Positions 7,901-30,397 of a DNA stretch of 40,600 nucleotides are shown here, piece after piece. The notes below the pieces were generated by a model. The model was not told the DNA's origin and did no database searches. It worked only from the letters and a program-made list of their open reading frames with translations. The translations under genes were made by a program, and so were the position numbers. Each line of letters starts with the position of its first letter. Positions within the stretch are counted from its first letter, which is position 1. Source of the DNA: a virus; the IMG/VR virus record IMGVR_UViG_3300015371_000089, positions 1-40,600 of that record; one strand, 5' to 3'.

Positions 7901-8066
7901 CTGTTTCTCCTGCTGCTGTCGCCGCCAGGGCGATATTGCTTGCGAAGTGCGTCGCGATCGGCGCCTGGGCGCCCGCCGGCGCGTTAGTCGCAGCGATCAC
8001 CTGGTTGATAGCCGGCGTCGTTGTCGGCACCCAGAGCGCCACGCGTGCGGCCTGCGTCGTCATCAT
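7845..8066 (-). CDS. Small Ala/Thr-rich hypothetical protein
   Basis: A 73-residue frame whose ATG at 8066 overlaps the stop of the giant fibre gene (ATGA), suggesting coupled translation. The first 55 residues (Ala, Thr, Ile-rich) look protein-like. The basic C-terminal 18 residues overlap the start of the next gene by 56 bases and look less constrained. No family is recognised. It could be a fibre-tip or assembly factor by position. The overlap makes the gene less certain than its neighbours. Confidence 0.5.
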   Translation of the reverse strand: MMTTQAARVALWVPTTTPAINQVIAATNAPAGAQAPIATHFASNIALAATAAGETDGDAPRSGRHGDPGRRPR

Positions 8067-11000
8067 GTGCTCCCAAGCCGCCACCCGCCGGTGAAGCCGG
8101 AAGGCACTGCGCCGACAAACGTGCGCTGTCCAAGGTTGAGAACGTTTCTGCTGGTCTGCGAGCCGGCGAAGAAACCCATGACCGCAGGCCCCATGGTCTT
8201 GGCGCTGTACAGGCTGATGCTCACGCCGCCGATGTTGTTGGCGGGATCCTGGCTACCGATCGCCTGGCCGTTCCAGTTGCCTGACGGCGCAACACGGAAC
8301 CAGACTTTCTCATTGTCCAGGTCGACCGCCACGCCGACAACGCTCTCGACGGCGAGGACGCCGAGCGAGCGCCCGCTATTGACATCGTTGCTTTGGATCC
8401 CGCCGCGGTTATTTACATACGAGCTATTTAAGCCACCCCCCACATTTGCCCACGTCGCATCGTTCGTCACCAACCCGCAGCCCTCGTTGGCAAACGAGTT
8501 GATCGATGGGAACTCGCACTCGAAATAGAACTTCCCAGCGCTCTTCATGTTGGCTGTGCCAACAGACGCGAAGGCGTCCGATGGAGTGTAGTAGAGCCGC
8601 TCGCCCTTCTCGATCTTGGCGTTTGCCACGTCGGTGGAATACGTCAGATAAGCGTAGGTCGGGTGACCGATCGCGGTCTGGCTCCCGGACGGCCCCCAAC
8701 CCGGTGTAAAGCCGGCGGGCACCGTAAAGGCAAAGGCACCGGCGCCGAAATTGTACAGCCACTGACCGGTGGTCAACATGCACATCGGAGCGATGCGCGT
8801 CTGCGACCAGTAGCCGATGTCGATGCCGCCGACATTGGTCGCCGGATTAGCTGATGCGTTATTATTCCAGTTGCCGCCGTTCTTGCGCGCCCAGAAGCGC
8901 CAGTTGTCGAGGTCGACCGCAAAGCAGAACACAGAACCGACCGCAGTCCCGGCGCCAAGGTTTGCACCTGGTACGCCGGTGAACCCGCGCGCCCTGATCG
9001 CGCCTGCGGCTGTGTTGACCGCTGCAGCGCCAACCGGCCACGAGTTGAAAATCTGAGCAGTCGTGGCGCCTTCGGCGGCAACGCCGACGCACTCATCGGT
9101 GTTGCCCGAGATGGTGATCTTCGCCTCGAAATAAAACTTTCCGGTGTTTTTGAAAGCAGTCGAGGCGATCGTCAGCATGGTGCCGGTGGTCTTCTCTACG
9201 CGAAGGCCGCCAAGCGTCAGCGTCGCATTGGTGTTGGTGCCGCCGGTGAACGACACGTCGTAGATGGTGTCGAGCACCGTCACCGTGATGGTCTGGTTGG
9301 TCTGGTTGCCGGAAAGGTCGGTCGCGCGCACCGTGACGATGTACTGGTTGTTCAGATCGGCGTCGTTGGGTGTCCCGAAAATCTTCACGTCGTCGTTGAG
9401 CCAACGCAACGACTGACGGCTGGTTGGAGTGAGCTCAAACCGCGCCGCATCGGCGCCGCCGACGATCGACCAAACGACAGGTTCGTTCGCCGTCAGAGCG
9501 TGCGCCAGCTGCGCGAGCTCATTGATGCTGACGCTCGAGCTCGAGGTGATGGTCGGCGCCGTCGTGTCTGCCGGATTGTGCGGCCAGCCTGCCGTGAAGC
9601 CAGAAGGCAGCGCACCGATAAACGCCTGTTGCCCCCAGTTGATGACGCCGCGCCAGGTACTGATGACCGACAGTCCGATCATCGGCCCCATGGCCTTGTC
9701 GACGCCCACGTAGTTGCTGATGCTCACGCCGCCGGTATTGGTCACCGGATCTTGCAGACCGATCGCCTGGCCGTTCCATAGACCGGACGCCCCATTGCGG
9801 AACCAGACCTTCGCGTTGGTCAAATCGATCGCCGCACCAATGCAACCCTCGTCCGGTACCGTGCCAATCGACCGACCAGAACTGACGCCGTGGCTCCAAA
9901 TTGCGCCGCTGTTGAACACAATCGCCATGTTGTTGGCGAAGCCGTTGCCAAGATCACCATTGATCGCGTTGTGCGCCATAAACCCAGAAACGCCGTTACC
10001 TTGCGCATTTGCCGGTGTGATCTCGACATAATATTTGCCGGTATTCTTAAAGTCGGGTAGGCCGGCGTGCGTCACGTCCGTAAAGGGCGATCTGCCAAAA
10101 TGAGCCAACCGCTCGCCCTTTTCGATCTGCCCAGCGTTGGTGTCGAACTGAGCAGCCAGGCGGGCATAGGTCGGGTGACCGATCGCAGTATGCGAGCCGC
10201 TTAGCCAGCCCGGTGTGAAGCCGGCCGGCACTGCGCCATTGAAAGCGCTCTGCCCGAAATTGAACACCTGCTTTGAGGTGGTAGTCACCGATGCCATCGG
10301 AGCGACGCGCGTCTGCGTCAGATACTCGATACCAAGACCTCCGACATTGGTCGCTGGATTGGCTGATGCGTTGTTATTCCAAATCCCCGCCGCATTGCGA
10401 ACCCAGAACTTCCAGTTGTCCAAGTCGACCGCGAAGCAGGCATAGCTGCCAAGCGCAATCGTGCCAAGATTATAAAGGGTATTAGAGGAAAACCCACGCC
10501 CGTTGACATTGCCGTTGTGGACGATACCAAACCAGTTCATGCCATAGGTAAAATCTTGAACCTTCGCCATTGTCGCGCCTTCAATGACAACCCCAAACGA
10601 GTCGTTGGTGTTGCCGGCGACGCGCGTTGCCTCAAAATAGTATTTGCCGCTGTTTTTCCAGCCGTTCGCAACAATCGCCATACCGGCGGCGCCGCTTGTG
10701 TTGATGCCAAGGTTGGCGTCCGACAGAGTGACCGGGCCGGTTATGGTGCCACCAAGGAACGTCACGCCCTCGGCCGCGTCCGTGACGTTGACGGTGATAG
10801 TCTGCTCGACGAACAGCGCGCCAGGATCGGTCGCACGCACCCGCACCACGTAGGCGTTGCTGCCCAGGCTCGAGCCAGGCGTTTCGTAGTCCTTGGTTCC
10901 GTTGCCGGTCCAGCGCAGGGTCGAGCCGGCAATCTCGAAGTGCGCCATGTCGGCGCCGCCGACGCGCGACCAGGTGATGCCCTGCTCGTCCGTGCCGGTC

Positions 11001-13354
11001 AGTGTGTGCGCCAGGACCGTGTTCTCGACGTTGACGACGCTCGCGCTCGAGGTGATGACCGGCGGCTGGTTTTCAAACACGTCGAGCACCGCAATGGTGA
11101 ACGTCTTGGCCGGCGTTGCCGGCGACACCTGGGTGACCGCGACCGTGATGTTGTAGGAGGCGACCGTCTCGTAATCGAACGGCACGGTCGTCTTGATGAC
11201 GTTGCCCTCGAGCACAAACTTGCCGCCGGCACTTTCCACCAGGGCGAACAGCGGCGTGCCAGTGGTGCCGCTTGTGACCGAGAGGGTGCCAACCACCGTC
11301 CCGGCCGCGGCGTTCTCGTAGACGCTCGAGCCGGTGAGAATGATCTGGCTCGAGATGGTGTGCGGCGTGACGATGATGAGGAACGTCTCGGGGTCGGTCG
11401 GCGGCAGCACGCCCGAGACCGCAGCCGTGATGAAGTAGGTTGCAGCTGTCGCGTAGTCGAGCGGCGCCGCAACGCGCAGGCTGTTGCCGCTGACAAAGAA
11501 TTTGCCGCCGGCATTGTCGAGCAGCGAGAACACCGGGGTGTCGCCGATCGTGTCGACGGTGCGGAACGTGCCGATCGTCGCGCCGATGATCGCGTCCTCG
11601 GATACGACGTTGCCGTCGAGCTCGATACCGCCCTCGACGAGCTCGAAGACGTCCTTCACGACGATCGTGAGCGTGCGGTGCGCGGCCGGCGGCGTGATGC
11701 CCATCACCTCGACCACGATGTTGTGCGAGACGGCTGTCTCGTAGTCGAGCGGGCCGGCCACCACTATCGTGTCGCCGACCAGGGCAAACTTTCCGCCGGC
11801 GTCGTCGCTGAGCAGGAAGGTCGGCGTGCCGGTGTACGGATTGACCACCGAGAGGGTGCCGACCACCGTCCCGAGCAGGCTGTTCTCGAGCACCCGGTTC
11901 TCCGACAGCTGGATCACCGGCGCCGGCGGCGGCGCGTCAAGCAGCGCGGTGATGTTGCCCGAGCGGAAATAGACCGCCCAGATGCGGCTGGTCGCGCTCG
12001 GCGGGGCATAGAACGTGAGCAGGTTGGTTTCTGCCGTGAAGTCGACGCGCGGCTCCTGGTTGACGCCGTCGAGCGTGACCCAGAGCTCCTCGGGCTTGGT
12101 GATGTAGGGCGACATGGTGCCGCTCATGTAGGTGAGCGTGAACACCGTCTTGATGCCGTCAGGCGCAATCGGATCGATCTTGAAGATGATGGCCGCGCCA
12201 GGCCGCAGGTCGTCCGCGCTGACCAGCAAGTCCCATTGCACGATCGAGTCCGCGGTCACCGGGAACAGCAGTGTCATGCTGTCCGCAGTCGCGTCGATGG
12301 TGTAGTCGCCTTTGCCGGTGCCGTCGTCCCTGGTGAGTTTCACTCCGTTCAGGTGGACGTCATGCTCGGTGTCATCGTCGAAGTCGCCAGGCACGACGCC
12401 AAACATGTCGGGACCGGAGAACGTCGTCTGGCCGGCGATCGCCTTGTAGTTATACCGGCTCAGAACGCCGCCGGTGAGCGAGAACGGCGCCACCCACATG
12501 TCGCCGGTCCAGAAGAACAACGTCTTCTTGATGGTATTGAAGTAGAACGACCCGACCGGGATCGGGTTGGGCACCATGACGCCGGTGTCAGGATTAACTT
12601 CACCTGGACTGGGGTGATGATCCCAGGCGCCCAGATAGAATGTGCTCATCCAGCCAACCAATTGCTGGACGTAGATAGCCCACCACTTGGCGGACCAGAG
12701 GCCGCCCATGCCGCCCATGCCGTCGATCGGCTGATAGAACAGGCCGCGCGGGTACGGGCTCTGCCTGATGAAGGCTGGCGCGTCGGGGCCCGAGACGACA
12801 GGCCCCGCCAGGTACTCAGCCCAGGCTAACGCATCGTCCCGGGACTTCTCTGCATTGCTCGCCCAGGCCTGCGCATTGTTCGACCAGTTCTCCGCATCGG
12901 TCGCCTGGGTGTCCAGGCTGGCCGCGGTCGTCTCGGCCGCACGCGTCACGGCGAGCAGCCGGCTCTCAATCTGCTTGATCTGGGAGTGCCACTGCATCGC
13001 GCTCGTGGCCGCCGCCTCGGCGTCCTTGGCGAGCAGCGAGATGTCCTGCGCGGTAACGGTGTGCGACGAAATTGCTGATTGCACCGAGCTATGCAGCAGG
13101 TCCGTGATCTTTGTTACATCGCCTGTAATAGTCGTGACCAGGCCAGGCTTCAGTTGTTCCGGCCCGACCAGCTGGTTGCGCAGCTGCCCGTCGTCGCGGC
13201 GGATCTCGGCGAGCGCCTCCTGCATGCCGATGACCACCTCGCGCAGTTCCGCGAACGCGCCGTCGAGCTCGTTGCCAGGCGGCGGTTGGGTCGGCGAGCG
13301 CCGCTGATGTTCTGAGAATGAAAAGTCGCGCGTCGGTCGGCGCAGGTTCGCCAT
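8063..13354 (-). CDS. Giant tail fibre with cadherin-like and SPRY-like repeats
   Basis: A 1,763-residue fibre. Residues 1-60 hold a particle-binding segment ending in an IRRDDGQLRN motif that I associate with podovirus tail proteins. Residues about 65-190 are a long helix/coiled coil rich in Ala and Trp. Residues 190-480 are beta-rich (includes FYFNTIKKTLFFWTGDMW). Three cadherin-like repeats follow with LDYETA-type signatures near 537, 633 and 728, and two more divergent ones near 825 and 1328 (VRVRATD, VTVRATD). Four SPRY/B30.2-like lectin-fold domains with a GKYYFE/GKFYFE strand lie near 900, 1105, 1405 and 1608. The SPRY domains come in two A-B pairs, which indicates duplication. It heads the leftward late operon; no strong ribosome site is seen before the ATG. 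Confidence 0.88.
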   Translation of the reverse strand: MANLRRPTRDFSFSEHQRRSPTQPPPGNELDGAFAELREVVIGMQEALAEIRRDDGQLRNQLVGPEQLKPGLVTTITGDVTKITDLLHSSVQSAISSHTVTAQDISLLAKDAEAAATSAMQWHSQIKQIESRLLAVTRAAETTAASLDTQATDAENWSNNAQAWASNAEKSRDDALAWAEYLAGPVVSGPDAPAFIRQSPYPRGLFYQPIDGMGGMGGLWSAKWWAIYVQQLVGWMSTFYLGAWDHHPSPGEVNPDTGVMVPNPIPVGSFYFNTIKKTLFFWTGDMWVAPFSLTGGVLSRYNYKAIAGQTTFSGPDMFGVVPGDFDDDTEHDVHLNGVKLTRDDGTGKGDYTIDATADSMTLLFPVTADSIVQWDLLVSADDLRPGAAIIFKIDPIAPDGIKTVFTLTYMSGTMSPYITKPEELWVTLDGVNQEPRVDFTAETNLLTFYAPPSATSRIWAVYFRSGNITALLDAPPPAPVIQLSENRVLENSLLGTVVGTLSVVNPYTGTPTFLLSDDAGGKFALVGDTIVVAGPLDYETAVSHNIVVEVMGITPPAAHRTLTIVVKDVFELVEGGIELDGNVVSEDAIIGATIGTFRTVDTIGDTPVFSLLDNAGGKFFVSGNSLRVAAPLDYATAATYFITAAVSGVLPPTDPETFLIIVTPHTISSQIILTGSSVYENAAAGTVVGTLSVTSGTTGTPLFALVESAGGKFVLEGNVIKTTVPFDYETVASYNITVAVTQVSPATPAKTFTIAVLDVFENQPPVITSSASVVNVENTVLAHTLTGTDEQGITWSRVGGADMAHFEIAGSTLRWTGNGTKDYETPGSSLGSNAYVVRVRATDPGALFVEQTITVNVTDAAEGVTFLGGTITGPVTLSDANLGINTSGAAGMAIVANGWKNSGKYYFEATRVAGNTNDSFGVVIEGATMAKVQDFTYGMNWFGIVHNGNVNGRGFSSNTLYNLGTIALGSYACFAVDLDNWKFWVRNAAGIWNNNASANPATNVGGLGIEYLTQTRVAPMASVTTTSKQVFNFGQSAFNGAVPAGFTPGWLSGSHTAIGHPTYARLAAQFDTNAGQIEKGERLAHFGRSPFTDVTHAGLPDFKNTGKYYVEITPANAQGNGVSGFMAHNAINGDLGNGFANNMAIVFNSGAIWSHGVSSGRSIGTVPDEGCIGAAIDLTNAKVWFRNGASGLWNGQAIGLQDPVTNTGGVSISNYVGVDKAMGPMIGLSVISTWRGVINWGQQAFIGALPSGFTAGWPHNPADTTAPTITSSSSVSINELAQLAHALTANEPVVWSIVGGADAARFELTPTSRQSLRWLNDDVKIFGTPNDADLNNQYIVTVRATDLSGNQTNQTITVTVLDTIYDVSFTGGTNTNATLTLGGLRVEKTTGTMLTIASTAFKNTGKFYFEAKITISGNTDECVGVAAEGATTAQIFNSWPVGAAAVNTAAGAIRARGFTGVPGANLGAGTAVGSVFCFAVDLDNWRFWARKNGGNWNNNASANPATNVGGIDIGYWSQTRIAPMCMLTTGQWLYNFGAGAFAFTVPAGFTPGWGPSGSQTAIGHPTYAYLTYSTDVANAKIEKGERLYYTPSDAFASVGTANMKSAGKFYFECEFPSINSFANEGCGLVTNDATWANVGGGLNSSYVNNRGGIQSNDVNSGRSLGVLAVESVVGVAVDLDNEKVWFRVAPSGNWNGQAIGSQDPANNIGGVSISLYSAKTMGPAVMGFFAGSQTSRNVLNLGQRTFVGAVPSGFTGGWRLGST
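8080..10720 (-). repeat. Tandem duplication of an A-B SPRY module inside the giant fibre gene
   Basis: The segment from about 9560 to 10720 (first A-B pair) and the segment from about 8080 to 9240 (second pair) encode the same order: an A domain with VDLDNW(K/R)FW and WNNNASANPATNVGG, then a linker with SQTAIGHPTYA, then a B domain with WNGQAIG.QDP..N.GGVSIS and ending in GAVPSGFTGGW-like motifs. The shared blocks are also visible at the DNA level (for example gatcgcctggccgttcca near 8259 and 9760). A cadherin-like domain separates the two pairs. This points to a duplication event in the fibre gene followed by divergence. Confidence 0.8.
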
Positions 13355-19104: not shown

Positions 19105-19294
19105 GGGCGAGATCCTGGCACAGATCACCGCACCGCACTTCTGCGCCGGCATCGTGCTGCGGGACGATCACGTCGTCGAGACGGCGCCGATCGTGAGCTA
19201 CATGCGCAGATGGAGCCGGGATCGCGTGCGCGAATACTGCCGGCGTAAGGGGTGGAGGGTGCGGTGCCATATGGCACCAGAGGTCGGAGAGTGA
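19085..19294 (+). CDS. Conserved small phage protein (ITAPHFCAGIVL type)
   Basis: A 69-residue protein, or 63 residues from the ATG at 19103. The string ITAPHFCAGIVL.DD.VVETAPIV.YM..WSRD.VR.Y....GW is highly characteristic; I recognise it from many alphaproteobacterial phages, without a known function. It is thus likely to be real even though it stands alone on this strand and overlaps the 5' end of the leftward gene. Its last codons contain the palindrome at 19264-19277. Confidence 0.65.
   Translation: MAERLIMGEILAQITAPHFCAGIVLRDDHVVETAPIVSYMRRWSRDRVREYCRRKGWRVRCHMAPEVGE
19264..19277. promoter_or_regulatory. GTGCC-N4-GGCAC palindrome, copy 1
   Basis: GTGCC-ATAT-GGCAC, a perfect 14-base palindrome (16 bases with the flanking G/C) in the end of the small gene at 19085-19294. 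Four further copies of GTGCC-N4-GGCAC lie in gaps at 28612, 28806, 28840 and 29827. This copy faces the gap 19295-19527. Confidence 0.45.
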
Positions 19295-19776: not shown

Positions 19777-19993
19777 GATGCCGCCTCCGCTGTCTCCGAC
19801 GCGCCCTTGCCCTCGCCAAGAGCATTGCGCCTCCATGCCACCAACAGACGCCCCACCTGGTCGCGACCTGGCCGCAGCGCTGTCCGCTATGCCGAGCGGT
19901 GGCCGTGCACAGCTTCCTCCCTGGTCGACCCTTCTTGAACCCGCTCCGAGCTCGAGAGGCTCTCCAAGCTGCGTTTCCTGATCCTCTGTTCAT
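19757..19993 (-). CDS. Small Cys/His 'HGG' motif protein
   Basis: A 78-residue basic protein with C-x10-C-x9-C-x3-H (LCTATARHSGQRC, then WGVCWWHGGAM). This is the compact HGG-type motif seen in short phage proteins, sometimes placed near packaging or replication genes; it probably binds one zinc. The flanks are Arg-rich. The ATG at 19993 lies right at the edge of the repeat array and lacks a Shine-Dalgarno. The frame is open further upstream through the repeats, so the true start is uncertain. Confidence 0.5.
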   Translation of the reverse strand: MNRGSGNAAWRASRARSGFKKGRPGRKLCTATARHSGQRCGQVATRWGVCWWHGGAMLLARARARRRQRRRHRAWTEK

Positions 19994-19995
19994 GG

Positions 19996-20171
19996 TGTGA
20001 CGGTGTGACGGTGTGTGACGGTCTTCTCTTTCCTAGCTAATTTTAACAAGAGAGAGAGAGTAGTCATAAGGGCGAGACTGTCACGGACCGTCACACCGTC
20101 ACACTTGTGACGGTCTGTGACGGTCTTAGCCGCGTCACCTCTGTGACGGTGTGACGGTGTGTGACGGTCTT
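19996..20171. repeat. Iteron-like TGTGACGG array, candidate replication origin
   Basis: Eight forward copies of TGTGACGG start at 19996, 20004, 20014, 20106, 20116, 20142, 20150 and 20160. Two inverted copies (CCGTCACA) start at 20088 and 20096. An identical 30-base triplet of the unit occurs at both ends (19996-20025 and 20142-20171). Between them lies an A+T-rich stretch, about 20021-20070, with a purine run (agagagagagag). The array starts directly after the stop of the VapE-type ATPase gene. Ordered short repeats, an AT-rich core and a neighbouring helicase are the usual signs of an initiator-bound origin. Confidence 0.65.
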
Positions 20172-22564: not shown

Positions 22565-22962
22565 ACGCTCACCTGAGCTCGGACAATGCCGAGATCCTTG
22601 AGCGCGCCGATCGCGTCGGCCAGGTCCATCGCGACCATGTAGTTGAAGCCGCAGCACAGCAGATGCTGGCGCACGTCCAGCTGTGCGCGCGACAGCGTGC
22701 CGCCCTCGCGCTTGAGCTCGAGCCAGAACACGCCGCGGTACGGGCCGGTGAACAGGAAGTCCGGGTAACCCGGCTTCGTCCCCATGCGCTTGAGCCTGGC
22801 GCCGGCTGCAGCTGTGCGCTCCTCGCCATTGGGTATGTGCGTGTAGTGCCAGCCTGGCTGCATCGATACCTTGAGCGTGTCGACCAGGGCGCAGTGCAGC
22901 GCGAACTCTTTCGGCGAGGTCGGCCGGCGCGCGCGCTTGGTGAACAGGTCGATCTGCCTCAT
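22561..22962 (-). CDS. VRR-NUC domain nuclease
   Basis: A 133-residue single-domain VRR-NUC protein (PF08774), part of the PD-(D/E)XK superfamily. Visible active-site elements are PGYPDF (D68) and WLELKRE (E82-x-K84), followed by LSRAQ and a helix. Stand-alone phage VRR-NUC proteins are structure-specific endonucleases, thought to resolve branched DNA such as Holliday junctions. The ATG at 22962 overlaps the stop of the HTH gene (ATGA). It is part of the leftward replication operon. Confidence 0.85.
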   Translation of the reverse strand: MRQIDLFTKRARRPTSPKEFALHCALVDTLKVSMQPGWHYTHIPNGEERTAAAGARLKRMGTKPGYPDFLFTGPYRGVFWLELKREGGTLSRAQLDVRQHLLCCGFNYMVAMDLADAIGALKDLGIVRAQVSV

Positions 22963-23231
22963 GCACACAGCGTCCGATCGCGCACGGGCTCTGGCTCTTC
23001 GTCCTCAAATGTGAATAGGTTCAGGCTCGCTGTGAGCTCGAGCTTGGCGAGCGCTTTCTGGATCTTGCGGTACTGGCTCGAGGGGAACAGGCCATCGGCG
23101 CGCCAGTTGCACACCGCTGTGCGCGAGCGTCCGAGCCGCACACTGACTGCCGTGATACCGCCGAGCGCGTCGATGACGTCCTCGAACGAGCTCAACAGCG
23201 TGAAATCGGGATCGCCCAGCACTGCCTGCAT
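22959..23231 (-). CDS. HTH transcriptional regulator (Cro/YdaS-like)
   Basis: A 90-residue protein with a helix-turn-helix at about residues 22-55 (ALGGITAVSVRLGRSRTAVCNWRADGLFP..QYRKIQKAL). This form resembles Cro/YdaS-like phage regulators that bind operator palindromes. I prefer the ATG at 23231; the longer frame begins with a TTG at 23288 and has an unlikely N-terminus. No ribosome site is seen, so a leaderless start is possible. It heads the leftward operon opposite the Gp157 operon, in the position of a switch regulator. Confidence 0.75.
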   Translation of the reverse strand: MQAVLGDPDFTLLSSFEDVIDALGGITAVSVRLGRSRTAVCNWRADGLFPSSQYRKIQKALAKLELTASLNLFTFEDEEPEPVRDRTLCA

Positions 23232-23742
23232 GGGTACGGCATAAAGGTAAGAAAAATGGGCGCTCGCAACAGCTTTATTTTCAAACAAAAGCGTGGACAG
23301 CGAGTCCGAGCTCTCGCCCGAAAAAAAATTCAGCTGTCAAGAAAGCCGCTGCGCCGCAGTACGGAACCGTACCGTCATATCGGTGGACACCGAATCGGTT
23401 CCATCTCCGCGACAACTTGTTGTGCCACAATCTTGCCTTGCAAGTTATGCCCATCAACGCGCGACTACATAGCCCTGATGGGCGCGGTCAAGGGGGGTAC
23501 AAGCGCTAGCGCCGCAGGTACTTCGCTGCTGTCAAGTCAATTTGACAGCGCAGTGAACAAAGCTAGAATGGTTCACGTTATCTGACAGACGCCGCGGGCC
23601 CCAGTAGCAGGTTCACCCGCGTACCGACGAAAGGCCGGTCAAGGCCTCCAGTGTATTAGGGCTAGCTCAAGGCCCGCGTTTTAACAGGCCCGACCCCGTA
23701 ATCGTCCACGCATATGAAGTCCGCCCCGCGGGAGGCGCAGCT
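23232..23742. other. Divergent control region, 511 bp without genes
   Basis: No convincing gene. It holds a half-site GCTGTCAA at 23333-23340, a run of eight A at about 23321-23328, a strong rightward promoter with two inverted repeats (23528-23588), and a leader of about 165 bases with short repeats of aggcccg near 23675-23695. The G+C is lower than in the coding parts from 23280 to 23600. I see no tRNA. The length of the leader suggests antitermination or RNA-level control, but no known element is recognised. Confidence 0.5.
23528..23588 (+). promoter_or_regulatory. Rightward early promoter with operator palindromes
   Basis: TTGACA at 23542-23547 and TAGAAT at 23564-23569 with 16 bases between them give a near-consensus sigma-70 promoter. 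A perfect inverted repeat GCTGTCAA-N6-TTGACAGC (23528-23549) covers the -35 box. A second one, GTGAAC-N12-GTTCAC (23553-23576), brackets the -10 box. ATCTGACAG follows at 23580-23588. This is a layout in which a repressor would block RNA polymerase. It points to the Gp157/ERF operon. Confidence 0.75.
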
Positions 23743-27060: not shown

Positions 27061-27101
27061 TTGACCCGCAGGGAGGGCTCTGATAACCGTCACGGTGACG
27101 G
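27061..27101 (+). promoter_or_regulatory. Integrase promoter candidate with GTGACGG palindrome
   Basis: TTGACC at 27061-27066 and GATAAC at 27082-27087 (15-base spacer) fit a sigma-70 promoter. Immediately after is a perfect palindrome CCGTCAC-G-GTGACGG (27087-27101). Its half-site equals the GTGACGG core of the iteron array at 19996-20171. A protein binding the iterons could thus also control the integrase. Confidence 0.5.
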
Positions 27102-27138
27102 CGCGGTGGTCGCGCCGGAAACGCAACAGGAGCCCATC

Positions 27139-28380
27139 ATGAAGTTCCACGGTGATCTGAAGGCCGACAAGCTCGCGACGCTGCCGCTCTCGCCTGAAGG
27201 CAAGGCCACGACGCACAGCGACGGACGCGGCCTGGTGGTCGTTGTCGAGCCTGGCAAGGCCGGCCCGACCCGGACGTACAACTACCGTTTCACGTTCAAC
27301 GGCAAAGGCGCGATCCTGCGCATGGGCCGCATCGACGAGATGAACATCAACGAGGCGCGCCGGCGCGTCATGGGATATCGGCAGATGGTTCTCGACGGCA
27401 AAGACCCGCGCCAGCAAGCCGCGATCGCCGCGGCTGCCGGCATGACGTTCAAGCAGTACGCCGACGAGGCGATCCCTCACCTGGCCGGCGAGACGCCCGA
27501 CGCGATCTGGTCGTTCGCGGTTCGCACGGTCGCCGATCTGCACAAGCTGCCGATCGCGACCATCACCCGCAACCAGGTCTACGAGGCGATCGCGCCGTAC
27601 TGGCGCGAGCACCCGGTGCAGGCGAGCCGCTGCGTGCCCAAGCTCTGCAAGATCTTCAACCGCGCGCGCTTGAACGGCTTGCGCGTCGACAACCCGTGCC
27701 TGCTCGAGGATCTCTACGGGCTCGGCCTCAAGCCGCCGCGCTCGATGAAGCCGGTCGAGGCGCACGCCGCGCTGTCGGTCGACGAGCTCCCGGCGTTCCT
27801 GCAGCGCCTCGCCTACCAGCCCGACATCTCCGCGCGCTGCCTCGAGTATGCGATCCTCACCGGCGCGCGCTCGCAGGAGGCCCGCCAGGCGCGTTGGACC
27901 TGGCTCAACGCCGACATGACCACCGTCACGATCCCGGCCGAGTTCATGAAGGCGGGCCGCGTCCACACCGTGCCGCTCGCCACCCAGGTGACCGAGCTCC
28001 TGCGCCGCATGCCGCGGAACCATGACCTGATCTTTCCCTCGCACTACAGCTACGAGGGGACCAAGGCGATGCGCGCGCCGGCCCTGGTCGACGTCGCGAA
28101 CAAGGCGCACGTCGGCGACAAGCCGATCACGGTGCACGGCTTCCGCTCAACGTTCCGGGTGTTCGCCGGGACGCCCAAGCTCGAGGAGCGCATGGTCCTC
28201 GAGCTCTGCATCGCGCACGAGACGCGTACCCCCACCGAGCTCGCCTACGATCGCGAGCCCGACGGCAGCCCCAACCTCTACCTCGAGCGCCGGCGCCCGG
28301 TGATGCAGGCCTGGGCCGACTACGCGACCGGCGTCGTGCCGGCCGCCAACGTGGTCCCCTTCCGGCGGGAGGTCGCGTGA
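27139..28380 (+). CDS. int: P4-type tyrosine integrase
   Basis: A 413-residue site-specific recombinase. The N-terminal part has the arm-binding DUF4102-type pattern (DGRGLVVVVEPG, RFTFNGKG..LRMGRI..MNINEARRR). The catalytic domain has all key residues: R244 (TGARSQEA), K271, H333 and R336 (HGFR), H360 (CIAH) and the nucleophile Y370 (LAYDR). The start at 27139 follows AGGAG by 7 bases; a longer frame would cover the promoter. It integrates and, with an excisionase, excises the prophage. It is flanked by repeats upstream and a strong terminator downstream. Confidence 0.93.
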   Translation: MKFHGDLKADKLATLPLSPEGKATTHSDGRGLVVVVEPGKAGPTRTYNYRFTFNGKGAILRMGRIDEMNINEARRRVMGYRQMVLDGKDPRQQAAIAAAAGMTFKQYADEAIPHLAGETPDAIWSFAVRTVADLHKLPIATITRNQVYEAIAPYWREHPVQASRCVPKLCKIFNRARLNGLRVDNPCLLEDLYGLGLKPPRSMKPVEAHAALSVDELPAFLQRLAYQPDISARCLEYAILTGARSQEARQARWTWLNADMTTVTIPAEFMKAGRVHTVPLATQVTELLRRMPRNHDLIFPSHYSYEGTKAMRAPALVDVANKAHVGDKPITVHGFRSTFRVFAGTPKLEERMVLELCIAHETRTPTELAYDREPDGSPNLYLERRRPVMQAWADYATGVVPAANVVPFRREVA

Positions 28381-28554: not shown

Positions 28555-28595
28555 AAGGCCCCGCCGACCCTCACGGGCTCCCGGCGGGGCCTTTT
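28555..28595 (+). terminator. Strong Rho-independent terminator of the integrase unit
   Basis: A perfect 12-bp stem AAGGCCCCGCCG / CGGCGGGGCCTT with a 15-base loop, followed by TTTT at 28592-28595. It lies about 80 bases after the microprotein stop and should end transcription from the integrase promoter. Confidence 0.85.
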
Positions 28596-28611: not shown

Positions 28612-28625
28612 GTGCCAATGGGCAC
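28612..28625. promoter_or_regulatory. GTGCC-N4-GGCAC palindrome, copy 2
   Basis: GTGCC-AATG-GGCAC followed by TA, 17 bases after the integrase terminator. In this and copies 4 and 5 the palindrome is followed by TA(g/a). It stands at the head of the putative short transcript that ends at 28775. Confidence 0.5.
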
Positions 28626-28728
28626 TAGGCCCGCAGTCGCGTTGCGGAGGCCCGCCAGGGCCCATACGCGTCCTGAAGGAAACCATACCGGTCACCTCCT
28701 GGAAACGCACCAGCGGGCATTTCTGAGG

Positions 28729-28775
28729 GCGTGCAAAATAGCCCTACAGCCGCAGCGGTTTCTTGCACGCTTTTT
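28729..28775 (+). terminator. Second Rho-independent terminator
   Basis: GCGTGCAA (28729-28736) pairs with TTGCACGC (28763-28770), followed by TTTTT (28771-28775). The loop contains a nested CCGC-A-GCGG hairpin. It separates the region behind palindrome copy 2 from the DpdA-like unit. Confidence 0.65.
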
Positions 28776-28805
28776 CCGGGTTTTGAGCTTTACGCTGGGT
28801 TATCG

Positions 28806-28853
28806 GTGCCCATCGGCACTTTTGTTGTTGACAGGCTCGGTGCCCTTTGGCAC
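28806..28853 (+). promoter_or_regulatory. Paired GTGCC-N4-GGCAC palindromes, copies 3 and 4, with -35-like TTGACA
   Basis: GTGCC-CATC-GGCAC (28806-28819) and GTGCC-CTTT-GGCAC (28840-28853), with TTGACA at 28828-28833 between them. The second palindrome would lie where the spacer and -10 region fall. Downstream, gcgggccggtggtcgg (about 28861) recurs in close form after copy 5 (about 29852), so the two control regions are related over some 60 bases. They precede the DpdA-like unit. Confidence 0.55.
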
Positions 28854-28892
28854 TAAGGGCGCGGGCCGGTGGTCGGCCCTGGAGCCCGCGCA

Positions 28893-29027
28893 ATGTCCTT
28901 CCTTCTCTCCCTCCTCGCTCTCGTCACGGTCGGCCTCGGTGAGGTCCAGACCTTCAAGCACGTCGCGGATCACGTCCCGCACGTCCACGAGCATCACCGG
29001 CGCTCCGCCCGCAAGCAGGGGGCGTGA
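28893..29027 (+). CDS. 44-residue protein ahead of the DpdA-like gene
   Basis: A short frame with GGAG nine bases before the ATG. The N-terminus is hydrophobic (SFLLSLLALVTVGLG), followed by a His-rich segment (KHVADHVPHVHEHHRR). It could be a small secreted or membrane protein or a leader peptide for the next gene. Its TGA overlaps a GTG start candidate of the DpdA-like gene. No family recognised. Confidence 0.5.
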   Translation: MSFLLSLLALVTVGLGEVQTFKHVADHVPHVHEHHRRSARKQGA

Positions 29028-29032
29028 GCGTC

Positions 29033-29821
29033 ATGACCACCATCATTCACGGCACCCCGATCACCCCGCGCGCCGGCCTCGAGCAGATGGCCGGCCGCTC
29101 GTTCTGCGTCAGCTTCGCCGACCCGCGCGACCTGGCGACCTGCATCAGGCTGCAGGATCCGGCCGGCATGCTGATGCTGGACAACGGTGCGTTCACCGCA
29201 TGGCGCCAGGGCCGCGGCACGATCGACCGCGAGGCGTTCTTCGCCTGGGCGAACGAAGCGCAGGCAGCCTGCCCCGTCGCCGTCGCCGTGATCCCCGACG
29301 TGATCGGTGGCGACGAGGCGACCAACTGGCTCGAGGCTGCCTACGCGGTTCGCCAGGAGAGCGACTATCCCGAGCGCCTGATGTTCGTCTGGCACATGTC
29401 CGACAGCCTGGAGACGCTCGAGAAGGCGTGCCGGCTGTTCAACTTCGTCGCGATCGGCAGCTGCGCCGAGTTCGACGTGCAGAAGAACCGCAAGGGCTAC
29501 ATCGCCCGCCTGCGCCAGGCGAACGCGACCATCAACTACGTTGAGGCGTTCCATGGCCGGCGCCCCTGGATCCACCTGATGCGCGGCACGGCGATGTTTC
29601 CCAAGGCGATCCGGTTTGAGAGCGCCGACAGCAGCAACGTCGCGCGCAACCACTGCCGCACCCGCGGCCAGGCCAACCACATCGGCGCATTCGCCGAGCG
29701 CATCGAGGCGCCGATCCGCGCCGCCGCAGCTGCCTCCCCCAATGGGAACACCTACGCGACCAGCAACTTTGCCCCCCGGGAAGAAATTCGCGACATTTCT
29801 CCCCTCCCCCGGGCGGCTTGA
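29033..29821 (+). CDS. dpdA: DpdA-like (TGT-related) 7-deazaguanine DNA transglycosylase candidate
   Basis: About 262 residues from ATG 29033 (265 from a GTG at 29024). The pattern matches the phage DpdA family, relatives of queuine tRNA-ribosyltransferase that swap guanine for 7-deazaguanine in DNA: LDNGAFTAW (candidate catalytic Asp, near residue 50), then VAVIPDVIGGDEATN, FVWHMSDSLETL, FVAIGS, HLMRG and the hallmark SADSSNVARNH near 200. The C-terminal 60 residues are Ala/Pro-rich. No preQ0 synthesis genes (folE, queC, queD, queE) are in the window, so the base would come from the host or the unseen part. It lies in a separate palindrome-controlled unit after a terminator, like a 'moron'. 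Confidence 0.75.
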   Translation: MTTIIHGTPITPRAGLEQMAGRSFCVSFADPRDLATCIRLQDPAGMLMLDNGAFTAWRQGRGTIDREAFFAWANEAQAACPVAVAVIPDVIGGDEATNWLEAAYAVRQESDYPERLMFVWHMSDSLETLEKACRLFNFVAIGSCAEFDVQKNRKGYIARLRQANATINYVEAFHGRRPWIHLMRGTAMFPKAIRFESADSSNVARNHCRTRGQANHIGAFAERIEAPIRAAAAASPNGNTYATSNFAPREEIRDISPLPRAA

Positions 29822-29826
29822 CCTGG

Positions 29827-29840
29827 GTGCCGATCGGCAC
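29827..29840 (+). promoter_or_regulatory. GTGCC-N4-GGCAC palindrome, copy 5, with TTGACC upstream
   Basis: GTGCC-GATC-GGCAC followed by TAG, with TTGACC at 29818-29823 just before. GATC makes the palindrome perfect over 14 bases. It lies 52 bases before the start of the gene at 29893, whose ribosome site is AGGAG, and is probably the control site of the 29893-30757 unit. Confidence 0.55.
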
Positions 29841-29892: not shown

Positions 29893-30189
29893 ATGAAGAC
29901 CCCCGCCAACGTCTACGCAGTCGCCCCCAACGGCGTCGCGTTCTTTCCCTTCCCCGACACGCCGCTGACGCGCCTGGTCGACAAGGGCAGCACCGTGAAG
30001 TTCGCCAATCGCGGCGTTGTGGTCGCGCGGCTCGCCCGCGAGGGCAGCCTCTACGTGATGCGGAACACCGGCGGCGCGCACTGCCTGGCGGTTGCCGCCA
30101 CCGATGAGGCCCGCCTGGTCGCGCACTGGGAAGGCTTCCGCGAAACCTCCCTCGCCATCAGCGAGGGCCGCATCTGGAAAGGCATGTGA
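29893..30189 (+). CDS. Hypothetical protein in palindrome-controlled unit
   Basis: A 98-residue protein, beta-rich at the N-terminus (NVYAVAPNGVAFFPFPD), then strands with GSTVKFANRGVVVARLAREGSLYVM and a helical C-terminus (EARLVAHWEGFRETSLAI). The start is set by AGGAG eight bases upstream. No family recognised. It is the first gene after palindrome copy 5. Confidence 0.6.
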   Translation: MKTPANVYAVAPNGVAFFPFPDTPLTRLVDKGSTVKFANRGVVVARLAREGSLYVMRNTGGAHCLAVAATDEARLVAHWEGFRETSLAISEGRIWKGM

Positions 30190-30190
30190 C

Positions 30191-30397
30191 ATGGCAAAGC
30201 GCAAACGCATGACCGCGACCGCCTTCCAGGAGGCGCTCGTCGAGCTCGACATCGCGACCTATGACGAGGCCGCGGAAGTCTTCGGCGCCGGCCGGCGCAG
30301 CCTGGTGAGATACGGGACCGGCGAGAGGCCGCTCCCCAAGATGCTCGAGAACCTGGTCGAGGCGTACCTGACCATCAAGCGCGGGAGGCAAGCATGA
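30191..30397 (+). CDS. Small HTH protein
   Basis: A 68-residue protein with a Cro-like HTH (ATAFQEALVELDIATYDEAAEVFGAGRRSLVRYGTGERPLPKMLENLVEAYL). The start is one base after the previous stop. It may be an autoregulator of this unit and, with the palindromes nearby, a candidate ligand for GTGCC-N4-GGCAC. That link is only inferred. Confidence 0.65.
   Translation: MAKRKRMTATAFQEALVELDIATYDEAAEVFGAGRRSLVRYGTGERPLPKMLENLVEAYLTIKRGRQA

Follow-up and report, generated by a model that had tools for sequence, protein, structure and literature searches.

A diverged lone DpdA-family gene in a temperate phage and the supply genes beside its relatives

Known DpdA systems in phages

Among the known systems closest to the gene described here are the DpdA proteins of the 9g/CAjan type (PHROG 887); for phages 9g and CAjan, insertion of a preQ0-derived base into DNA has been shown. 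In addition, a survey of phage genomes listed 76 phages with a lone DpdA and proposed that they use host preQ0 or take up their base (Hutinet 2019, PMC6884629). Lone phage DpdAs have been hard to interpret for want of a known source of their base. In this class, represented by Salmonella 7-11, SEN1/SW9 and MED16 and by Hutinet's third group, dpdA stands without a pathway. Modification was measured at 50 dADG per million nucleotides (0.02% of G) in 7-11, and the lone-DpdA phage Orion showed no modification at all (PMC6884629). Pantoea MED16, also with a lone dpdA, has 354 dADG per million nucleotides, or about 0.13% of G; its DNA was cut by most restriction enzymes tested, and its resistance to MboI and Bsu15I was credited to N6-methyladenine (PMC8306585). 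Given these trace levels of dADG and the mostly cut DNA of MED16 (PMC6884629, PMC8306585), restriction evasion, the function named in the original prediction for the present gene, is unproven for its group. Transporters have also been described in this context: Vid5 and EC151 encode them along with biosynthesis genes (PMC6266253, PMC8310023), and YhhQ was reported in some phages, uncorrelated with any group (Hutinet 2019, PMC6884629).

A DpdA-family protein without the Pfam match and zinc motif of TGT

The window analyzed here, 40,600 bases long, spans the whole of one virus record. Its dpdA gene (29033-29821, + strand) is predicted to encode a DpdA-family DNA deazaguanine transglycosylase. 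The frame is open for 265 codons from GTG 29024 to the TGA ending at 29821, and its GC content per codon position (0.62/0.52/0.90) is what coding DNA of this genome typically shows. ATG 29033 (MTTIIHGTPITP, 262 aa) is the likelier start, favored by a GGGGG upstream and by agreement with relatives beginning MIHYHGTPITP, with GTG 29024 (265 aa) as the alternative. The translation contains LDNGAFTAW, PDVIGGDE, VWHMSDSLE and ADSSNVARNH, all four in the order originally claimed.

The protein matches the phrog_887 profile (E=1.9e-30), as do 75 of the 75 aligned relatives, and the 9g DpdA record matches PHROG 887 in a profile search with E=2.5e-100. The gene is thus confirmed by profile as a member of the same family as the experimentally tested DpdA of 9g, which bears out the claim of a phage DpdA. 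The PHROG 887 profile stayed silent in the 14 cellular genomes used as controls, every one of which encodes TGT. A direct comparison by hhalign between the profile of the 75 relatives and 9g DpdA gave E=1.1e-9 and paired LDNGAF with LDSGAF, SADSS with SCDSS, and His184 with His196 (KVHGF). The two share a profile family, an Asp/Asp/His set and a fold class. They differ in length (262 aa against 317 aa for the 9g type), in the lack of folE, queD, queE and queC in the window phage, and in sequence, with about 17% identity in the aligned core. The lone DpdA phages are within reach of tblastn, since the window protein directly, though more weakly, matches the DpdA of Salmonella 7-11 (E=4e-6) and those of SEN1/SW9 of the MED16 cluster.

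The AlphaFold2 model is a confident TIM barrel (pLDDT 89.3, pTM 0.87), the fold anticipated for such an enzyme. Many TGT structures are among the top 50 Foldseek matches in the PDB, with TM-scores of about 0.5 that are no better than those of other TIM barrels, and both phmmer and profile searches of PDB sequences with the window protein returned only noise. Bacterial TGT (PF01702) has in common with it the TIM barrel and an LDxGAF/DSGGFQ aspartate motif. In contrast to bacterial TGT, the window protein is about 110 residues shorter, matches no Pfam or NCBIfam model, PF01702 included, in scans of the record and of the protein, and lacks the CxCxxC zinc motif seen in the E. coli enzyme. When profiles were compared, the Asp motif was the only part to align with E. 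coli TGT, so kinship with TGT is one of fold and motif, not of sequence. Identification as TGT was rejected on the missing Pfam match and zinc motif. Likewise, the equivalent of His196 is missing in DpdA2 (Vibrio nt-1 type) according to Hutinet 2019 (PMC6884629), and DpdA2 was rejected because His184 is present. The PHROG 887 match, the residues, the fold and the absence of the zinc motif together identify the window gene as DpdA rather than TGT or DpdA2, in keeping with the outcome of the profile search, where the DpdA family was matched and the TGT Pfam was not.

Conserved residues and a proposed reaction

Counting GTG 29024 as residue 1, conservation over 101 non-redundant relatives is 1.00 for D53, 0.99 for D92, 1.00 for H124, 0.98 for G145, 0.97 for S146, 0.98 for H184, 0.99 for D202 and 0.99 for S203. 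The expected catalytic Asp pair is kept, D53 and D202 aligning with D72 and D215 of 9g. Asp53 (LDNGAF; codon 29180-29182, + strand) is invariant and is proposed as the general acid/base, corresponding to 9g D72 and E. coli TGT D89, and Asp202 (SADSS; codon 29627-29629, + strand) is the proposed nucleophile. His184 (PWIHLMRG; codon 29573-29575, + strand) corresponds by hhalign, with the 9g numbering checked, to His196 of 9g DpdA.

These residues suggest a reaction in which Asp202 would attack C1' of the target deoxyguanosine, releasing guanine, and Asp53 would act as acid/base while a 7-deazaguanine base, with preQ0 as first choice, enters in its place. The product would be dPreQ0, perhaps hydrolyzed to dADG, and the base would come from the queuosine pathway or the salvage pool of the host. 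Probably only a little of the base is inserted, and only at certain sites. Overall, we consider it likely that the window gene encodes a minimal lone DpdA, a TGT-like exchanger acting on double-stranded DNA with a host-supplied base, at a small dose and under repressor-type control.

Setting beside the integrase

Directly upstream of the dpdA unit lies a tyrosine integrase gene (27061-28380, + strand; PF00589, E=1.2e-9; Arm-DNA-bind_3; phrog_1, E=2.7e-30), and elsewhere in the window are genes for the recombination proteins Erf and Gam, for a replicative helicase and for a regulator of the Cro/YdaS type. Together these genes strongly support the temperate lifestyle that had been predicted, and the dpdA unit is probably an accessory gene within the integration module. 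The further assignment to podoviruses is unsupported: among the structural-region proteins scanned, no confident head, tail or packaging match was obtained, and terminase and portal were not identified. A second viral contig (L169, IMGVR_UViG_3300000440_000126) encodes an integrase N-terminus 99% identical to that of the window, and it stops inside the integrase, so the presence of dpdA there cannot be read.

Upstream of dpdA is a 44-residue open reading frame (28893-29027, + strand) with a hydrophobic N-terminus, which overlaps the dpdA start region and gave no family match above noise. The frame itself exists as described, but its role as a partner gene has no support, since the genes upstream of dpdA differ among the relatives inspected. 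Downstream, a 98-aa frame (29893-30189, + strand) is the first gene of the next palindrome-headed unit and precedes a 68-aa likely HTH regulator (30191-30397, + strand; phrog_14076, E=2.9e-4). Two observations elsewhere in the window stand apart from dpdA. Dense GTGACGG/GTGTGACGG repeats at 19993-20170, just after the stop of the helicase gene, could be replication iterons, and the minus strand at 8063-13354 encodes a phage protein of 1763 aa that contains cadherin domains (PF00028, E=4e-16).

Palindromes around dpdA as probable operators

The sequence GGTGCC-N4-GGCAC matches six times in the record, where 0.08 matches are expected and at most 2 were seen in 100 shuffles. The six matches correspond to five GTGCC-N4-GGCAC sites, one of which (19264-19277) is read on both strands and is the only copy away from dpdA. 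The other four lie at 28612-29840, within 1.2 kb around dpdA, which agrees with the prediction that the gene has palindromic sites of its own. Two of them, GTGCCCATCGGCAC (28806-28819) and GTGCCCTTTGGCAC (28840-28853), are respectively upstream and downstream of TTGACA (28828-28833, + strand), a -35-like box by sequence, with no full sigma-70 consensus scored. GTGCCAATGGGCAC (28612-28625), with perfect arms and an asymmetrical center, follows the terminator on the integrase side, and GTGCCGATCGGCAC (29827-29840) lies just past dpdA and ahead of the next unit, preceded by a TTGACC box (29818-29823). Two terminators had been predicted ahead of dpdA; one is a plain terminator-like hairpin between the integrase and the dpdA unit (28575-28592, + strand), but the second site to score (28805-28820) is one of the palindromes. 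Repeated GGGCC-CGGTGGTCGG leader hairpins were also considered and discarded, their stability not exceeding that of shuffles.

A double GTGCCN4GGCAC palindrome flanking TTGAC, closely like window positions 28803-28856, occurs in another contig (L189:6759-7335). There the pair precedes an early/recombination operon that includes an annealing gene of the ERF superfamily, and it lies next to a gene of the Cro/C1 HTH type, whose HTH match is below the Pfam cut-off. The regulator of that contig has no clear homolog in the window, where the frames at 30191-30397 and 22959-23288 are candidate regulators for the palindromes. Among the other loci examined, palindromes were seen only as isolated copies, outside the contigs chosen for carrying the palindrome. 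Since the same pair heads an early operon, the palindromes around dpdA probably serve as operators for a phage repressor or a protein of the Cro type, on the analogy of that locus. Such operators would keep dpdA silent or weakly expressed in the lysogen and switch it on after induction, making strong dpdA expression from a silent prophage less likely. The suggestion that expression from the prophage marks host DNA is therefore probably wrong.

A deep branch without supply genes

No match to FolE, QueD, QueE, QueC or VUT was found in any window frame of at least 40 aa, in a 40.6-kb record that could be incomplete, which upholds the claim that the window has no preQ0 pathway genes. An Rfam scan of the window gave no match, hence no known preQ1/preQ0 riboswitch. 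A phage that neither makes nor imports preQ0 would obtain its base from the host. This reading of host dependence is supported; it is not new, since host supply or uptake for lone DpdAs was already proposed in 2019 (PMC6884629).

Viral contigs yielded no fewer than 575 candidate stretches encoding relatives, of which 80 were kept, and bacterial genomes yielded 79 loci. Named relatives include Salmonella BTP1, Shigella SfI, many Vibrio phages, Pseudanabaena Pam5 and Microcystis Mae-JY30, and none of 50,697 phage records contains DNA near-identical to the window. The window gene belongs to a branch of 12 members (SH-aLRT 99), two of which are bacterial MAG loci (Acidimicrobiaceae and Roseiarcus), on a long stem of 0.94 changes per column. 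Unlike the described lone DpdAs, it sits in a deep branch of its own, whose MAG relatives are alphaproteobacterial and actinobacterial, and it is a new, diverged representative of this known class.

Supply genes adjacent to dpdA in relatives

Across the wider family, a supply gene adjoins dpdA in 46 of 98 non-redundant loci. Pfam models identified PTPS/QueD, QueC and Vut_1, and radical-SAM models QueE. The supply gene is VUT alone in 33 loci, QueD in 7, QueD with QueE in 5 and QueC with VUT in 1 (in total, VUT 34, QueD 12, QueC 1); these counts are non-independent samples, and p-values drawn from them ignore kinship. VUT is by far the commonest real neighbor when all neighbors are clustered (55 loci), with 56 of 56 copies on the dpdA strand and 55 of 56 within 300 bp. 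Anywhere in the record, VUT is present in 25 of the 50 records of the family, compared with 73 or fewer of the 50,697 phage records, a background rate from two tblastn queries that undercounts other VUT types; an alignment joining both VUT types was too diverse for scanning. In Pam5, a VUT/YhhQ-family transporter is encoded two genes after dpdA, and the E. coli member of this family is annotated as a queuosine precursor transporter. VUT changes state about ten times on the dpdA tree, so its pairing with dpdA is not one inherited event. The DNA-modification logic is that of the VUT/YhhQ cassettes of Vid5 and EC151, with VUT adjoining dpdA in relatives, whereas the window and its branch are without VUT.

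The association was also examined in reverse in a sample of 14 VUT-bearing phages: nine match PHROG 887, three match phrog_15826 (two of them annotated as DpdA-like), one has another PHROG named queuine tRNA-ribosyltransferase, and mEp021 alone has none. In mEp021 (L185), a VUT-like six-helix membrane protein (2456-2968) adjoins a putative cytosine methyltransferase, and nothing in the record matches DpdA, which makes this phage an exception to the VUT-DpdA link.

Several loci show other arrangements. Partial preQ0 pathways, with no FolE or QueC nearby, abut a short dpdA in six loci, with queE-queD before dpdA in L066, L028, L058 and L061 (the order in L061 differs) and dpdA-queE-queD in L072 and L131; PTPS/QueD was identified by Pfam in four of these six, and QueE by similarity to 9g QueE, with a radical-SAM match in two. 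In L055 (4930-6675), VUT, QueC (PF06508, E=1e-41) and dpdA are directly adjacent, a trio that is possibly a compact salvage-plus-synthesis cassette. PAPS-reductase-type genes lie near dpdA in unrelated phages (L016:4011-5300 and L177:3658-4575), with a look-alike at L017:4283-5125.

In the branch of the window, none of 11 loci has a supply gene beside dpdA, so its members should depend wholly on the host pool. A broader model, offered tentatively and at slightly less than even confidence, is that short lone DpdAs make up a very large family across phages and prophages, with dpdA moving in cassettes of two or three genes that include one exchangeable supply gene (VUT, QueC, or QueD alone or paired with QueE). 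This gene would fill the missing step of the host, so that the system is fed by salvage rather than by a full phage pathway, and the supply-less branch of the window would be wholly host-fed, possibly on preQ1 or queuine in hosts without QueC. That short dpdA genes systematically adjoin one supply gene is the novel element, and it was not found in the open-access literature, subscription reviews aside.

Host base pools and alternative readings

A clear QueC is present in roughly 44 of the 50 genomes that carry the dpdA family. The six without clear QueC all have TGT (6/6), and TGT was found in 7 of 7 checked genomes lacking clear QueC. VUT-linked dpdA occurs in four of the six genomes without QueC compared with 7 of 44 others (p=0.017, uncorrected and ignoring kinship), a hint that the VUT importer goes with hosts that must salvage. 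Three bacterial genomes with TGT and no clear QueC (L104, L107 and L126) have host-like VUT genes in addition to a phage VUT-dpdA cassette. Both bacterial MAGs with window-branch members (L087 and L095) have TGT and no clear QueC, and L095 has a VUT transporter; these MAGs may be incomplete. Hence, such hosts may have little preQ0 itself, and with the long stem and the lack of a nearby supply gene, the substrate of the window branch could have drifted. One may argue from these genomes, from the excess of VUT-linked dpdA where QueC is lacking, and from the dPreQ1 of phage Dp-1 (PMC6884629), that the enzyme exchanges another deazaguanine, such as preQ1 or queuine from the salvage pool. However, the possible incompleteness of the MAGs weakens this argument, the QueD, QueE and QueC neighbors of relatives indicate preQ0, and dQ was found in none of the phages tested (PMC6884629). 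A base other than preQ0 is thus unlikely.

Still less probable is that the gene encodes a phage-borne tRNA-guanine transglycosylase that acts on tRNA or other RNA and tunes host translation. PHROG 887 and several records do use the label "queuine tRNA-ribosyltransferase", and the TIM fold and Asp motif are common to TGT and the window protein, but the missing TGT Pfam match and zinc motif and the silence of PHROG 887 in cellular genomes with TGT argue against it, as does 9g DpdA, the tested family member, which acts on DNA without needing host TGT (PMC6884629). An equally improbable alternative is a moron gene, decaying or conditionally useless, with intact sequence and no meaningful modification in its natural host, as the unmodified DNA of Orion, the low level in 7-11 (PMC6884629) and the supply-less window branch might suggest, but the open frame with strong codon-position bias and catalytic residues 97-100% conserved among very diverged phages indicate that dpdA is maintained by selection.

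The preferred reading therefore remains a host-fed lone DpdA acting on DNA. Taken alone, the window gene is one diverged addition to a known class, and the wider pattern of supply genes matters more: the adjacency of an importer makes the base source of lone DpdAs testable.
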